The notes under the pieces were generated by a model. The model saw only the letters and a list, made by a program, of their open reading frames with translations. It did not search any database and had not been told where the DNA came from. A stretch of 64,000 bases of DNA from Ureibacillus manganicus DSM 26584 (GTDB lineage Bacteria > Bacillota > Bacilli > Bacillales_A > Planococcaceae), in the NCBI RefSeq assembly GCF_000772945.1, contig NZ_JPVN01000012.1, forward strand, positions 1 to 64,000, given 5' to 3'. Made by a program: the position numbers and the translations under genes. This document shows positions 37,480 through 41,714 of the stretch, piece by piece. Position 1 is the first letter of the stretch. Every line of letters begins with the position of its first letter.

Positions 37480-37731
37480 ATGTCGAAAAACGAACATAAT
37501 GACCACCATGGCACTGGTGCAAAATTCCTTGTAGCTGGTGGATTTATATCTTCACTTGGCGAATTTATTCAAGCTATCGGCGGCTCTCTTCTCGCTGTGG
37601 AAAAAATGAGAGCACATAAAAAGATAGAGAAACAATTCAATCATAAAATTAATGACTTAGAAAAAGAAATTCATTATTTAAAAGAAGAAATGAAAGAAAT
37701 GAAAAAAATGAAAAAAAGTGATATGAAGTAG
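37480..37731 (+). CDS. small helical protein with coiled-coil tail, unknown
   Basis: An 83-residue protein. The N-terminus is His-rich (NEHNDHHGTG); a Gly-rich hydrophobic segment follows (about residues 13-38, LVAGGFISSLGEFIQAIGGS), long enough for one membrane helix. The C-terminal half (45-83) is a Lys/Glu-rich coiled coil ending in Met/Lys repeats. ATG at 37480 is seven bases after AATGAGGTG. I do not recognise the family. Confidence 0.6.
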   Translation: MSKNEHNDHHGTGAKFLVAGGFISSLGEFIQAIGGSLLAVEKMRAHKKIEKQFNHKINDLEKEIHYLKEEMKEMKKMKKSDMK

Positions 37732-37747
37732 CTAATGTATATTCTAC

Positions 37748-38158
37748 TTACATATCAGTTATTTCAATGTATTTTTGAAAGTAAGTAGTAATTTCTTTAA
37801 TTTGTATATTTTGCTCGTCATTCGTAAAAGTATATACACTACAATATTCACATTTCTCATGATTAGAAAGTGTTACAGCTGCATTGACGGCTCCAGCTGT
37901 TCCATGTGAAATAATGGATTGTATAAATAATTCTTTGACAGGCAAATTTCCTACCTCCTCCATAAAATCTATTACTTTTTCCTTCCCCTTCAATGTTTGT
38001 AACCCTATAATGTGCCATCGAATGTCTTCGGTAATATGATCAAAGAAAAATTGCATATTTCGATTTGACATTTGAATGTTTAAATCTATTAAAAAATTGA
38101 TGAGTGGAGAATCTCCAACATCTTTTTGAACGTTTACTTTTATTTCATTTTGTACCAT
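37748..38158 (-). CDS. SnoaL-like/NTF2-fold protein
   Basis: A 136-residue cytoplasmic protein with the cone-shaped SnoaL/NTF2 pattern: an opening helix (PLINFLIDLNIQMSNRN), FFFDHITEDIRWHIIG, the LKGKEKVIDFM helix and late strands (CEYCSVYTF, IKEITTYF). Such domains bind or convert small hydrophobic molecules. AAGGAG lies five bases before the ATG. It is convergent with the gene at 37480. Confidence 0.72.
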   Translation of the reverse strand: MVQNEIKVNVQKDVGDSPLINFLIDLNIQMSNRNMQFFFDHITEDIRWHIIGLQTLKGKEKVIDFMEEVGNLPVKELFIQSIISHGTAGAVNAAVTLSNHEKCEYCSVYTFTNDEQNIQIKEITTYFQKYIEITDM

Positions 38159-38332
38159 GTGTGCTCCTTTTACTAAAAATATCTATCGAATACTATATCT
38201 TAATTTTCAGAAAATTACTATTCTATTTTTCAAAAAAATTCTAATACATATTTATTTTTTTTAGTTCAATGTTTTATTGTTTAATATAATTCTCTTCATT
38301 GTCAAAAATTGAAAATAGATTTTTGAACAATA

Positions 38333-38348
38333 TGTGAATTGTATCACT
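38333..38348. promoter_or_regulatory. Fnr/CRP-like box before microprotein operon 1
   Basis: TGTGAATTGTATCACT fits TGTGA-N6-TCAC(A/T), the Fnr box of Bacillus. It lies 129 bases before the microprotein start and exactly 28 bases upstream of a TACAAT hexamer (38377-38382). The same box, spacing and TACAAT occur before operon 2. A further shared block GTTGATATATAACA lies at 38392-38405. Regulation by Fnr is inference. Confidence 0.6.
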
Positions 38349-38476
38349 ATCTATTTTCTTTTATGTTGATTGGGTGTACAATGGTCTCAAGGTTGATATA
38401 TAACACAATTAATAACAATACATTTATGTGTCAGTGTTCTATAACAAAAATAATAAACTGTATGGAGGCGATCCTA

Positions 38477-38599
38477 ATGTGGGTTGTAACAGTATTTGAA
38501 AAAAGTTCAGTTCGAATCTTTAAGTTTACTAAAAAAGAAGAAGCAACAAAAATTCTGCTTGGTTACAAAGGATCTGCCATTTTATCATATACAAACTAA
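38477..38599 (+). CDS. MWVVTVFE-family microprotein A (40 aa)
   Basis: A 40-residue protein beginning MWVVTVFEKSS and ending SAILSYTN. The ATG at 38477 follows GGAGG by eight bases; the longer open frame from 38339 runs through the promoter region. Predicted order is strand (WVVTVF), strand (RIFKF), helix (KKEEATKILL), strand (AILSYT). Three paralogues follow at 38651, 40728 and 40939; by eye 27 of 40 residues match copy D. No signal peptide. The family is not one I know. It is the first gene of a two-gene unit ending at the terminator at 38799. Confidence 0.75.
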   Translation: MWVVTVFEKSSVRIFKFTKKEEATKILLGYKGSAILSYTN

Positions 38600-38650
38600 A
38601 GACAGAAATAGCAAGATAAAAGTAAGCTTAATTACAGGAGGCAATTGTCC

Positions 38651-38788
38651 ATGTGGGTACTAACAGTTTTTAAACAAGACACTTACCATTTTTTCGAATA
38701 TGAAACGAAAGAGGAAGCACAAGAAGCTCAAGAAAATACAGAGTTTCCATCAATCATTACATTCACAACTTTATCATTAGTTGCATAA
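38651..38788 (+). CDS. MWVVTVFE-family microprotein B (45 aa), diverged
   Basis: A 45-residue paralogue that keeps the N-terminal MWVLTVFKQD, the FFEYETKEEA strand-helix pattern and a hydrophobic C-terminal strand (SIITFTTLSLVA), but has lost the SAILSYT ending. AGGAGG stands nine bases upstream, 51 bases after gene A. It is the most divergent of the four. A strong terminator follows 10 bases after its stop, so A and B form a bicistronic unit. Confidence 0.72.
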   Translation: MWVLTVFKQDTYHFFEYETKEEAQEAQENTEFPSIITFTTLSLVA

Positions 38789-38798
38789 TGACAAAAAG

Positions 38799-38830
38799 AG
38801 AGACGCCGTAAAATATCAGGCGTCTCTTTT
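38799..38830. terminator. bidirectional terminator
   Basis: AGAGACGCC/GGCGTCTCT 9-bp stem with T-runs in both directions (TCTTTT on plus, TCTCTTTTT on minus); it ends microprotein operon 1 and the DoxX gene. Confidence 0.9.
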
Positions 38831-38831
38831 A

Positions 38832-39194
38832 TTAATTGAAAAAAATTCGACCAACTGTGATGAATAACGCGATGAATAAGAATATACAACTAACTTTTAC
38901 GTCTTTATATTCTTTACGATTGAAATGAAAGAATATGTTAAACAACATAAGTATTACTAATACAGAAGCTGCAATTTGCGCTATCATTGTTAAACTCTCA
39001 AAAATGATTGGTAAAACTAATCCAAAAGCTGCAATAATTTCAATAATTCCAATGAACACAACTAACCCCTGCGGAACATCTCTTACCCAAGGTATATTCG
39101 CTCTTGCTATCGGATATTGAAAAGCCTTCAGTACACCGTCCATCATAAACATTAACATTAATGTAATTTGAAAAATCCACAGCACAACATTCAT
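38832..39194 (-). CDS. DoxX family membrane protein
   Basis: A 120-residue protein with four membrane helices. The first contains LMLMFMMDGVLKAFQYP and the second is preceded by VPQGLVVFIGIIEIIAAFGLVLP, the glycine and glutamate pattern of DoxX/DoxD-like proteins. They are linked to redox and thiol stress in some bacteria; the role here is unknown. GGGGGAAG lies five bases before the ATG. It is divergent from the oxidoreductase gene at 39492, and the two may share an operator. Confidence 0.82.
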   Translation of the reverse strand: MNVVLWIFQITLMLMFMMDGVLKAFQYPIARANIPWVRDVPQGLVVFIGIIEIIAAFGLVLPIIFESLTMIAQIAASVLVILMLFNIFFHFNRKEYKDVKVSCIFLFIALFITVGRIFFN

Positions 39195-39220
39195 GCAGGC
39201 TTCCCCCTTGTCATTGAATG

Positions 39221-39235
39221 ATTCAAATATTGAAT
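39221..39235. promoter_or_regulatory. inverted repeat between doxX and oxidoreductase genes
   Basis: ATTCAA-ATA-TTGAAT, with a third TTGAAT half-site just before it (39214-39219), lies 27 bases upstream of the doxX start in the divergent region. It could be an operator shared by the two genes. No specific regulator is implied. Confidence 0.35.
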
Positions 39236-39491
39236 TTGCTTAATTAACTGCGAATCACTAATATAATCGTCTATATAGAGTATTCATATCTCTCAATTTT
39301 GGGAGTAAGTTTAAAGATGTTTTACGGCAATCTTCAAGTCTTAGACAAGAATAATTTTCAATATGACTTTTTACAAACCACAATTATTTTTAATCACATA
39401 ACTCTTACAACAACATTTTGTATATATTTAATGGGAGGATCTTTTTCATCACGAATTGACGTCAAAGGAACGTATGACGAGGAGGAAGATA

Positions 39492-40442
39492 ATGAAAGCC
39501 TATATTTCAAATCAATATGGTTCACCGGATGTTTTAGAATTGAAAGAGGTTGAAAGACCCAATTGTAATGACAATCAAGTTTTAGTTAAAGTTCATGCAA
39601 CATCTATAAACTATGGTAATATCGTACTCTTACGAGGAAAACCTTTTGCGGCACGTTTTGTATTTGGTTTAACAAAACCAAAATTTAAAATTCCTGGTGG
39701 AGATATTGCAGGAACAGTTGTTGCGATTGGAAAAAATGTTAAACAGTTTCAAGTTGGTGATGAAGTATTCGGAGATTTATCGAGTAGCGGTTGGGGTGGA
39801 TTTGCAGAATTTGTAGCAGTACCAGAGAATGCAATCTCGCTTAAACCAAAAAATAGTACGTTTGAAGAAGCGGCTGCTTTACCAATGGCAGCTACCACTG
39901 CCCTACAAGCACTCAGGCAAAAAGGAAATATTAAAGAAGGCCAAAAAGTACTAATCTATGGAGCCTCAGGTGGTGTTGGTACTTATGCCGTACAAATTGC
40001 AAAAGCATTAGGTGCGGAAGTGACAGCAGTATGTAGTACAAGAAATGTTGAAATCATTAAATCTTTAGGTGCCGATCATGTAATAGATTATAAGAAAGAG
40101 AGCTTTTCTGAAGAAAATACGTATGATTTAATACTTGGTGTCAATGGATATTTGCCAATTGGAGTGTATTTAAAAGCATTGAAAACAAGTGGGAAGTTTA
40201 TCCACGTTGGTGGTTCCCCAAAGCAAATGTCTCAAGCAATCTTCCGTTCAATTGGAAATAAAAAGGTGTCGATTTTCTTACAATCACACAAACAAGAAGA
40301 TTTGAATTTTATTAAAAATCTGTTTGAGGCCGGTCAACTAAAATCAGTTATAGATCAAAGATTTACTTTTCAAGAACTAAAAGAGGCAATGAAATACTTC
40401 GAAGAAGGTCATGCGCAAGGAAAGGTACTCATCACATTATAA
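39492..40442 (+). CDS. zinc-independent MDR / quinone-oxidoreductase-like enzyme
   Basis: A 316-residue NADP-dependent medium-chain reductase. The N-terminal GroES-like domain includes VKVHATSINYGNIVLLRG and IPGGDIAGTVVAIGKNVKQF; the cofactor-binding motif is VLIYGASGGVGTYAVQIAKALGA in part (about 150-172), followed by VCSTRNVE and GADHVIDY. Zinc-binding cysteines are absent, so it belongs to the quinone reductase branch. ATG at 39492 is preferred, with GAGGAGGAA upstream. It lies between the two microprotein operons and ends at its own terminator. Confidence 0.88.
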   Translation: MKAYISNQYGSPDVLELKEVERPNCNDNQVLVKVHATSINYGNIVLLRGKPFAARFVFGLTKPKFKIPGGDIAGTVVAIGKNVKQFQVGDEVFGDLSSSGWGGFAEFVAVPENAISLKPKNSTFEEAAALPMAATTALQALRQKGNIKEGQKVLIYGASGGVGTYAVQIAKALGAEVTAVCSTRNVEIIKSLGADHVIDYKKESFSEENTYDLILGVNGYLPIGVYLKALKTSGKFIHVGGSPKQMSQAIFRSIGNKKVSIFLQSHKQEDLNFIKNLFEAGQLKSVIDQRFTFQELKEAMKYFEEGHAQGKVLITL

Positions 40443-40449
40443 CAATTTG

Positions 40450-40476
40450 AAACCATTCAACCATTGAATGGTTTTT
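40450..40476 (+). terminator. Rho-independent terminator
   Basis: 11-bp perfect stem AAACCATTCAA/TTGAATGGTTT with a 3-base loop followed by a T-run, eight bases after the oxidoreductase stop. Confidence 0.9.
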
Positions 40477-40585
40477 TGTAGTTATATACCCATTATTATT
40501 AAATACCCCTAATTCCTAACATTAAACCTAAATATGCATGCAGTTTGCAAATGATTTTGTGAAATCGTTAACAAATTGAATAATA

Positions 40586-40601
40586 TGTGAATTATTTCAC
40601 T
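40586..40601. promoter_or_regulatory. Fnr/CRP-like box before microprotein operon 2
   Basis: TGTGAATTATTTCACT has a fully symmetric core (GTGAA/TTCAC). It is 127 bases before the gene and 28 bases upstream of TACAAT (40630-40635), the same geometry as operon 1. Downstream, GTTGATATATAACA is repeated at 40643-40656 and a perfect 14-base palindrome TTGTTATATAACAA lies at 40686-40699, within the probable leader. Confidence 0.62.
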
Positions 40602-40727
40602 ATCTATTTATTTTTACCATTATTAGGTATACAATGGATTTAGTTGATATATAACAATGTAATTTACAATACAACAATTAATTGATTGTTATATAACAAC
40701 AGATTATATTTGAGAGGAGATCCTACA

Positions 40728-40850
40728 ATGTGGGTTGTGACAGTTTTCGAGCAAGATTCTTTTCGAATGTTTGAATTTGAGGAAATGAATGAAGCTACTT
40801 TAGTCATGGCAAGCTTTAAAGGTTCAGCAATCTTATCTTATACTAAATAA
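40728..40850 (+). CDS. MWVVTVFE-family microprotein C (40 aa)
   Basis: A 40-residue paralogue: MWVVTVFEQDSFRMFEF, a helix with NEAT, and the end FKGSAILSYTK. AGGAG stands eight bases before the ATG. By eye 27 of 40 residues match copy D. It was found by reading the sequence because it is shorter than usual gene-finding limits. There is no terminator before gene D, 88 bases downstream, so they are probably co-transcribed. Function unknown. Confidence 0.75.
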   Translation: MWVVTVFEQDSFRMFEFEEMNEATLVMASFKGSAILSYTK

Positions 40851-40938
40851 ATTTACTTAATGATTGAACGCTAGTAACTATGGAATTTACAGTAAGTACT
40901 GTTTGATGATAGAGAAGAAAATATTGGAGGTTTTATAC

Positions 40939-41061
40939 ATGTGGGTTGTAACTGTATTCGAACAAAATTCTTATCGAATATTTGAGTTTGTTCAACAGGA
41001 AGAAGCGACAAAATTATTAGAAATCTTTAAACATAGTGCAATTTTATCTTATACAAAGTAA
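40939..41061 (+). CDS. MWVVTVFE-family microprotein D (40 aa)
   Basis: A 40-residue paralogue: MWVVTVFEQNSYRIFEF, then QQEEATKLLEIFK and the SAILSYTK ending. GGAGG stands eight bases before the ATG; the longer frame from 40864 lacks a site. Same predicted strand-strand-helix-strand order as its relatives. It ends microprotein operon 2 at the terminator 10 bases beyond its stop. Confidence 0.76.
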   Translation: MWVVTVFEQNSYRIFEFVQQEEATKLLEIFKHSAILSYTK

Positions 41062-41070
41062 TTTACTAGT

Positions 41071-41098
41071 GAGCATCAATACGTTGATGCTCTTTTTT
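41071..41098 (+). terminator. terminator of microprotein operon 2
   Basis: GAGCATCAA-TACG-TTGATGCTC, a 9-bp perfect stem, followed by TTTTTT. The 280 bases after it, up to 41380, carry no gene; a direct repeat of TTGTGA (in 41240-41265) and a TATACAAT (near 41310) may be the promoter of the next gene. Confidence 0.92.
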
Positions 41099-41380
41099 GT
41101 ACCATTTCCCTTTCATTTTTCGACTCGACCGAATAACTAAAAACCCCTTTTTTACTCCATTCTACACAATTCTTCTATTACGTACCCTTTTTTTGTCATT
41201 TTCTTCAAATTAAAATACAAATTATGAACAATTTAAACACTAAATTGTGACAAATTTGTGAACAATGCTTTTTCATGCACAATCCGACAAATTTTTCATA
41301 TTTTCTATTATACAATGATAGAGCTTTAAGAGATTTGCCCCTACTAAAAGATGAAAAATACTAGACGGAGGAAAGAAATA

Positions 41381-41545
41381 ATGAAAGACTTTTTATTTAA
41401 AAAAGTTTTAAAAGTAGCAATTGAAATGAAAAGAAAAGATATGTACAAAAAGGCACATGACTTAGGTTTTACACATCCAGAAACGGTTACTTGTAGTCAA
41501 GAGTTAGATGCTTTACTCAATGTATATTCCCATAAAGTAGCGTAA
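41381..41545 (+). CDS. Spo0E-like aspartyl-phosphate phosphatase (54 aa)
   Basis: A 54-residue protein matching the Spo0E family: an N-terminal helix (about 1-25), then GFTHPETVTCSQELDALL, with the family signature SQELD, and the closing helix (NVYSHK). Spo0E-like proteins dephosphorylate Spo0A-P and restrain sporulation; the SQELD motif carries residues needed for activity. Length is typical. ATG at 41381 follows CGGAGGAAAG; the frame from 41351 lacks a site. It is a single gene with its own terminator. Confidence 0.82.
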   Translation: MKDFLFKKVLKVAIEMKRKDMYKKAHDLGFTHPETVTCSQELDALLNVYSHKVA

Positions 41546-41611
41546 TTCTTCATAATTAAAATTAAGTGGAGTGAATTATATAGATCTATTACATATAAAT
41601 ATATGATAGAG

Positions 41612-41649
41612 CCCAGTTATGTTAGATTAAGTCTACTAACTGGGTTTTT
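41612..41649 (+). terminator. Rho-independent terminator
   Basis: CCCAGTTA/TAACTGGG outer stem with inner TTAGA/TCTA pairing, followed by TTTTT, about 65 bases after the Spo0E-like gene. Confidence 0.87.
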
Positions 41650-41714
41650 AACCTTTTCTTTGATAGTTTAATATATTAAATATGTAAAACATATTTGCAA
41701 ATTGGGAGCGCGTC

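Follow-up and report, generated by a model that had tools for sequence, protein, structure and literature searches.

What do four very short genes, arranged in two pairs within a 64,000-nucleotide stretch of the Ureibacillus manganicus DSM 26584 genome (contig NZ_JPVN01000012.1, positions 1 to 64,000; hereafter the window), encode, and what might their products do? A preliminary description of the window had proposed that these genes, designated A to D here, constitute a selected and so far undescribed microprotein family in paired operons, and the data support this proposal: A–D are real, selected genes of one well-supported family of microproteins of approximately 40–60 residues. The four open reading frames (ORFs) lie where they had been placed (Table 1), and GGAGG or AGGAG precedes every ATG by 8–9 bases. 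Copies A, C, and D, estimated earlier to share about two thirds of their residues, have pairwise identities of 62–69%, and all three carry the SAILSYT end. When the host genome (4.05 Mb in 81 contigs) was searched with A, D was matched at E 5e-12 and C at 4e-11, a likeness far above chance, and a search with D retrieved exactly these four genes. Copy B, whose C-terminus reads PSIITFTTLSLVA, shares 41% identity with D (E 5e-5). The organization in two operons also held, as a conserved block is located upstream of each pair. Behind C–D a terminator was recognized by a terminator scan, and behind A–B a terminator-like inverted repeat was read by eye, which has a longer loop than the scan accepts. 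None of the four proteins contains cysteine, and their net charge varies from -6 to +4. According to a rough Chou–Fasman average over the family, the proteins are predicted to open with a strand, to continue with a long central helix, and to close with another strand; a second strand is not clear.

The family is widespread among the relatives of the host. A single 40-residue query found matches in 38 of 101 genomes, and a 25-row profile matched 137 of 261 genomes of the order, representing 13 of 19 genera, with one to six copies per matching genome. In a class-wide sample of 398 genomes 21 matched, 17 of them from the window's own bacterial family. When named genomes were searched with a DNA pattern for MWV..TVFE, 68 stretches were obtained, mainly of Lysinibacillus, Ureibacillus, Sporosarcina, Caryophanon, Psychrobacillus, Metasolibacillus, and Metalysinibacillus. 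Window-type copies also lie on three plasmid records, where no gene is annotated at these places (the gene table being incomplete). Across the 25 rows of the profile, M1, W2, V3, T5, F7, E16, E22, A23, and T39 are invariant or nearly so. Two tests that had been named beforehand, frame conservation in relatives and the comparison of synonymous with non-synonymous changes, did not refute the proposal: the frames are kept, and synonymous changes are in excess, pointing to purifying selection. The mean proportions of synonymous (pS) and non-synonymous differences (pN) are 0.68 and 0.26 among 76 distinct proteins of the short type defined below (2850 pairs), and 0.55 and 0.22 among 21 proteins of the long type (210 pairs); pN is smaller than pS in 2844 of the 2850 short and in all 210 long pairs. 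Variation is also greatest at third codon positions. Proteins that are translated and under selection show this pattern. Many of the loci stem from close relatives, so that these and the following counts are not independent.

Two subfamilies can be distinguished. Members of the short type (39–42 residues, mostly ending in AILSYTK or AILSFTK) include A, C, and D, while those of the long type (45 residues, mostly ending in TLTLVA or TLSLAA) include B. This split forms one branch with a Shimodaira–Hasegawa-like approximate likelihood ratio test (SH-aLRT) value of 98 in a tree that comprises 22 long and 34 short rows (56 in total); the tree is built on few columns, the program warned of long branches meeting, and 23 of its 52 inner branches are open. 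Copy B is thus not the diverged odd copy that it had appeared to be, but belongs to a conserved 45-residue subfamily. Short-then-long is a common pair order in Ureibacillus, short–short pairs are also present, and single family genes are common. At the same locus, genomes G002 and G011 possess an A–B-type pair and lack C–D; G006 and G018 possess B and C without A, and a D-like gene is present in G018 and absent from G006. The earlier statement that four copies are kept is only partly correct, as copies come and go between close relatives. Arrays of three to five family genes were also seen (L129, G056:C3, G265:C1, G298:C74; Caryophanon latum and genera g16 and g3).

The genes are accompanied by a dedicated composite control region, which is well supported. 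A TGTGA-N6-TCACW palindrome matching at least 9 of 10 positions is present in 81 of 96 upstream regions, where base shuffles gave an expectation of 0.35 (single-base shuffles served as null model for the palindrome, for the cre-like sites, and for the leader boxes described below). Most of the regions have it at -130 to -155 from the ATG of the first gene, others at -88 to -130. The 5′ flank of the core is conserved as well, as GAAC in most and GAAT in some of 59 distinct sites that had been chosen for a good core. The second element resembles the catabolite-responsive element (cre), the binding site of CcpA with the consensus TGWAANCGNTNWCA. Scores of 10–11 out of 11 were reached in 49 of 71 distinct regions compared to 0.2 expected, and scores of at least 9 in 52, all of which start exactly 26 base pairs (bp) before the TGTGAA-N4-TTCAC palindrome. 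Hence, the cre site at a fixed place that would be expected of a CcpA regulon is found in 52 of the 71 regions, and that of copy C scores 11/11. The exact cre–palindrome module occurs at 31 places in 24 of the 101 genomes, each time 111–152 bp before a family gene, and a control with the reversed pattern found none. Approximately 36 bp after the palindrome centre follows a -10-like TACAAT, TAGAAT, or TAAAAT, whereas the -35 region is merely pyrimidine-rich, an arrangement that would suit an activator-dependent promoter; the cre-like site lies approximately 75 bp before the inferred transcription start. A scan for the sigma-70 consensus returned 11 promoter-like sites compared to 17.6 in shuffled sequence, none of them at the inferred -10s. 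From its elements, this control region looks able to read both sugar supply and redox state.

Just 3′ of the inferred start lie two further palindromes, in Ureibacillus TGATATATAACA followed by TGTTATATAACA. Both are present in 59 of 75 distinct leaders, with start-to-start spacings of 42 (34 leaders), 43 (12), 41 (8), 32 (4), and 30 bp (1) and an unconserved sequence between them; shuffling of the first 60 member entries produced 0.6 such pairs per pass. As these spacings correspond to four or three turns of DNA, the simplest reading is that of two operators on one face of the helix, an argument that takes the spacing alone as its basis. It would point to a further DNA-binding regulator in these bacteria. 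Alternatively, the boxes could act as RNA and fold into a 5′ stem-loop, by which the mRNA would be protected or regulated. A strong stem is indeed predicted for copy C (z -3.8, against a null model that keeps dinucleotides) and for several relatives, and pairing beside the boxes is slightly raised in 37 related leaders, with 76 pairs compared to 61.6 expected when partners were shuffled (p 0.01), or 22 compared to 17.7 for the nearest pair alone (p 0.07). However, the mean z over the 75 leaders is -0.8, only 19 of them fall below -1.5, copy A has a z of +0.4, and a spacing of about 42 or 32 bp suits DNA binding better than a loop. We therefore regard an RNA function as rather unlikely and no longer as the main explanation of the boxes, a stem being conceivable for some species and not as a general feature.

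Which proteins might recognize the upstream elements? In catabolite activation by CcpA, the cre is located upstream of the promoter, and the cre-like site likewise precedes the start here. Different from such promoters, it is rigidly coupled to a redox-type palindrome, and among the 101 genomes the exact module precedes this family only. We take the palindrome to be a redox-type site, with Rex or ResD as candidate regulators. A Rex-type protein is encoded in the host genome, and the Rex operator of Staphylococcus aureus is given as TTGTGAAW4TTCACAA (PMC2883068). Its core, TGTGAA-N4-TTCAC, is identical in the family promoters, whereas the flanks agree only in part: of the 59 distinct sites chosen for a good core, 24 have an A directly before it, and 21 have a T as its last base. 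In addition, and again different from Rex operators, the family site adjoins a poor -35 and has the cre-like site 26 bp upstream, as if placed for activation. ResD is another candidate, as TGAAC and TGTGAA occur approximately 11 bp apart and may correspond to its binding consensus. Across the whole host genome, TGTGA-N6-TCACW-type sites number 21 compared to 11 for the reversed control. Some of them precede genes that, judged by eye, resemble those for NADH dehydrogenase (L137/L138), the ATP synthase operon (L139), and a ba3-type oxidase (L145), and these sites possibly represent a redox regulon of this genome.

A different assignment would make the palindrome an Fnr site and the proteins part of an anaerobic gene set. 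The host genome encodes an Fnr-like protein with a C-terminal CCENCPSSIC motif, presumably the counterpart of the cysteine cluster of Bacillus Fnr, and TGTGA-N6-TCACA is also compatible with the Fnr consensus. Nevertheless, five of the 24 module-bearing genomes (G001, G007, G016, G018, and G026, of which G018 is 76% complete) yielded no match to Fnr at E 1e-30, the 166 Fnr-positive genomes among 261 do not include a single one of the 39 family-bearing genomes of genus g3, and many Fnr-positive genomes, for example in genus g8, do not have the family. Moreover, the palindrome centre lies about 36 bp before the -10, while about 29 bp would be expected of a class II site. Because the module occurs in genomes without an Fnr match, Fnr is a poor candidate and was downgraded; we consider control by Fnr quite improbable.

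Hints at the function of the proteins come from more distant homologues. Four genomes of the class sample, three of which belong to a single other genus, matched at E 4e-10 to 1e-6, with products such as MWVITLFLKESVKMYEFSTEEEARDAFKRLKGCKFLSEIVYFNDPCFL (48 residues), and a six-sequence profile detected the family in 27 of 299 genomes of their order (12 of 116 genera). Excluding one duplicate and one window-type copy, the 31 loci represent 29 distinct Bacillaceae-type genome places. Their neighbours were named by eye or from the record, except where Pfam was run (L173, L198, L213, and L219). At eight of the 29 places a catabolic or permease gene on the same strand ends 15–75 bp upstream: a PrpF-like gene in L173, L201, L202, L212, and L216, a PrpF-like end in L220, an amino-acid permease in L200, and in L198 an enzyme of the dihydrodipicolinate synthase (DHDPS) family, with an aldehyde-dehydrogenase-like gene following. 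Six further places (L211, L213, L214, and L217–L219) are found beside sigma-54 activators or a class-III aminotransferase, and the remaining 15 have no such setting. Pfam confirmed PrpF in L173, the upstream DHDPS in L198, the sigma-54 activator together with a Na+/H+ antiporter in L213, and the aminotransferase in L219. One query also found nine plasmid records, eight of Priestia and one of Cytobacillus. At six of the seven of these places that were viewed, a catabolic or transporter gene lies 34–78 bp upstream, namely a permease that itself follows pruA and a proline dehydrogenase gene (L194, L228), a Glu/Leu/Phe/Val dehydrogenase that is the same protein in both cases (L196, L229), or a major facilitator superfamily transporter (L226, L227); in L195, pruA and, judged by eye, an ornithine-cyclodeaminase-like gene are found farther upstream. 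The Priestia plasmid hypothetical protein WP_171843308.1 (MWIITTYSNLNNTTMFEYENEIEARKAF...) exemplifies these homologues; it differs from the window proteins in following proline catabolic genes and a permease and in its longer C terminus (KILSEVIYF), and it demonstrates that some members of the wider family carry an annotation, though not one of function. In genus g14, a paralogue precedes a CggR-like gene by 174–176 bp in nine loci and by 246–521 bp in four (Pfam run on L043).

These settings also bear on the idea that the family proteins are themselves the DNA-binding proteins of the paired TGTTATATAACA boxes and thus control their own leaders. Within the host genome the exact 13-base box occurs in a phased pair solely before C, a second pair with one mismatched box precedes A, and elsewhere only single boxes are found, all of which, like the phased spacing itself, would be in line with autoregulation. 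Yet the charge ranges from -6 to +4, the distant homologues are located behind unrelated genes, and the Sporosarcina regions inspected (L070, L071, and L108) carry no boxes, so that we hold autoregulation to be very doubtful.

In our tentative explanation, which we rate as somewhat short of probable, A–D are small soluble proteins that tune metabolism as adaptors or regulators and are made from mRNAs under CcpA-type, redox, and phased-palindrome control. We infer the identities of the regulators, the compact strand-strand-helix-strand fold, the protein partner, and the action on it, while the family, its selection and two subfamilies, the conserved control region, and the catabolic setting of some distant homologues are computational results. 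In the window's own bacterial family, the proteins would be made from short stand-alone mRNAs with a dedicated promoter, which would join the CcpA-type site to the redox-regulator palindrome beside its weak -35. The two phased palindromes over the transcript start would be bound by a third protein, probably a repressor. As long as this protein leaves the leader free, the promoter suggests production of the microproteins under plentiful carbon and a shifting redox state. Their most likely action would be to bind an enzyme or a transporter, either of central or of amino-acid metabolism, and to tune this target in response to plentiful carbon and a change in the NADH or oxygen state. Some of the distant homologues, by their settings, suggest an action near catabolic enzymes and transporters, and a 40-residue protein that is soluble, keeps its hydrophobic positions, and varies in charge would fit an enzyme adaptor or inhibitor. 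A possible model for a microprotein acting on a metabolic enzyme in this way is SR1P of Bacillus subtilis. This protein has a length of approximately 40 residues, contains cysteine, unlike the window proteins, and is not known to resemble them in sequence. It is encoded in a dual-function small RNA, whereas the window proteins are encoded in bicistronic mRNAs together with paralogues. SR1P binds GapA and is carbon-regulated and glycolysis-linked (PMC8152036; PMC8501984). The preliminary description had hinted at oxygen or redox state; the conserved TGTGAA-N4-TTCAC fits this hint, but neither the CcpA-type site nor the paired palindromes of the leader had been noticed, nor had the distant homologues beside catabolic genes.

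Several observations weigh against metabolic tuning under this threefold control. No good palindrome is present in 15 of the 96 upstream regions, 19 of the 71 regions lack a cre-like site, including that of copy A, the paired boxes are absent from 16 of 75 leaders, and the exact module is missing in 14 of 38 family-bearing relatives. At 21 of the 29 Bacillaceae-type places (for example L197, L199, L203, L205–L207, L210, and L221) there is no catabolic or permease gene on the same strand within 80 bp upstream, and the plasmid places are partly near copies of each other. Furthermore, no conserved partner gene was found in the window's own bacterial family, where neighbours differ between loci and their largest cluster comprises 16 loci, and the spread of net charge among the four proteins means that they have no obvious binding surface in common.

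The same idea could be extended, in our view with little likelihood, to a Bacillales-wide class of dedicated metabolic "tuner" microproteins, in which the Bacillaceae members are wired behind catabolic genes and the window family has been freed into bicistrons. Many Bacillaceae copies would then each follow a single set of catabolic genes, whose enzyme or permease would be their target; the same fold would be produced here from stand-alone bicistrons with a promoter of three inputs (carbon, redox, and phased repressor), and short/long pairs may form heteromers that adjust central metabolism.

No significant match to the family was obtained in Pfam (best values 0.054 and 0.066), PHROGs (0.0085), sequences in the PDB (0.73), NCBIfam, or PADLOC (none in the latter two), and a phage collection contained no match, on which ground a phage origin was rejected. 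Tiny, duplicated, and bicistronic genes may recall toxin–antitoxin, bacteriocin, or phage-derived pairs, but this is extremely improbable here, as none of six proteins matched in PADLOC, a single VapB match among 25 members is not significant (E 0.066), the phage collection gave nothing and PHROGs weak matches only, neither a leader peptide nor a membrane stretch is visible by eye, and single genes are common. Searches with the starts of the protein sequences as text found no paper on the family, and the literature on Lysinibacillus small proteins, proline operons, and unannotated small proteins included no title on it. The family is thus unnamed so far in the libraries, phage collection, and literature searched; small-protein catalogues exist (PMC11364881) and may include these ORFs without a name. 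Few parts of bacterial genomes are as poorly annotated as the small proteins, and here one family combines deep conservation, two subfamilies, a rigid private control region (in 101 genomes), and recurring catabolic settings of its kin. By virtue of this conservation, control region, and catabolic settings, its function is open to direct questions, namely which enzyme or transporter is bound and which regulators read the promoter.

Table 1. Positions of the microprotein genes and their putative control elements and terminators within the window.
Feature	Position	Strand	Basis or remark
Palindrome TGTGA-N6-TCACT, A–B promoter, redox-regulator type	38333..38348	+	144 bp before ATG of A
Putative -10 TACAAT, A–B promoter, no good -35	38377..38382	+	inferred from alignment of relatives
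Leader palindrome 1 TGATATATAACA, A–B	38394..38405	+	leader scan
Leader palindrome 2 TGTTCTATAACA, A–B	38435..38446	+	41 bp after the first
Microprotein A, 40 residues, short type	38477..38599	+	ORF frame, sequence comparison
Microprotein B, 45 residues, long type with TLSLVA tail	38651..38788	+	frame, comparison, tree
Terminator-like inverted repeat 3′ of B	38799..38827	+	by eye: AGAGACGCC-11-GGCGTCTCT-TTT
Cre-like site TGAAATCGTTAACA, 11/11, C–D promoter	40560..40573	+	cre scoring, module search
Palindrome TGTGA-N6-TCACT, C–D promoter	40586..40601	+	26 bp after cre start
Putative -10 TACAAT, C–D promoter	40630..40635	+	inferred from alignment of relatives
Leader palindrome 1 TGATATATAACA, C–D	40645..40656	+	leader scan
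Leader palindrome 2 TGTTATATAACA, C–D	40687..40698	+	42 bp after the first
Microprotein C, 40 residues, short type	40728..40850	+	ORF frame, sequence comparison
Microprotein D, 40 residues, short type	40939..41061	+	ORF frame, sequence comparison
Terminator 3′ of D	41071..41092	+	terminator scan

An Rfam search over positions 37500–41700 gave four matches up to E 1, all of which were below their gathering scores and were rejected. Shortly 3′ of D, a small gene for a Spo0E-like aspartyl-phosphate phosphatase is encoded on the same strand (41381–41545; PF09388, E 5e-15), and TTGTGA half sites can be read upstream of it as well. Three database records deserve mention with regard to the distribution of the family. 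The record CP031730.1 (L035), named as a plasmid of Stenotrophomonas rhizophila, agrees in gene order with a plasmid of Lysinibacillus fusiformis (L034) and is probably a misassigned or contaminant replicon. Likewise, NZ_JADHDX010000001.1 (L116), named Arthrobacter, contains a family gene that is Sporosarcina-like and is preceded by a palindrome and a cre-like site but no leader boxes; this record is probably misnamed. Outside the usual genera, Peribacillus asahii (L068) carries a window-type gene together with the palindrome, a cre-like site of 9/11, and boxes 42 bp apart, which suggests horizontal transfer of the gene plus its promoter.

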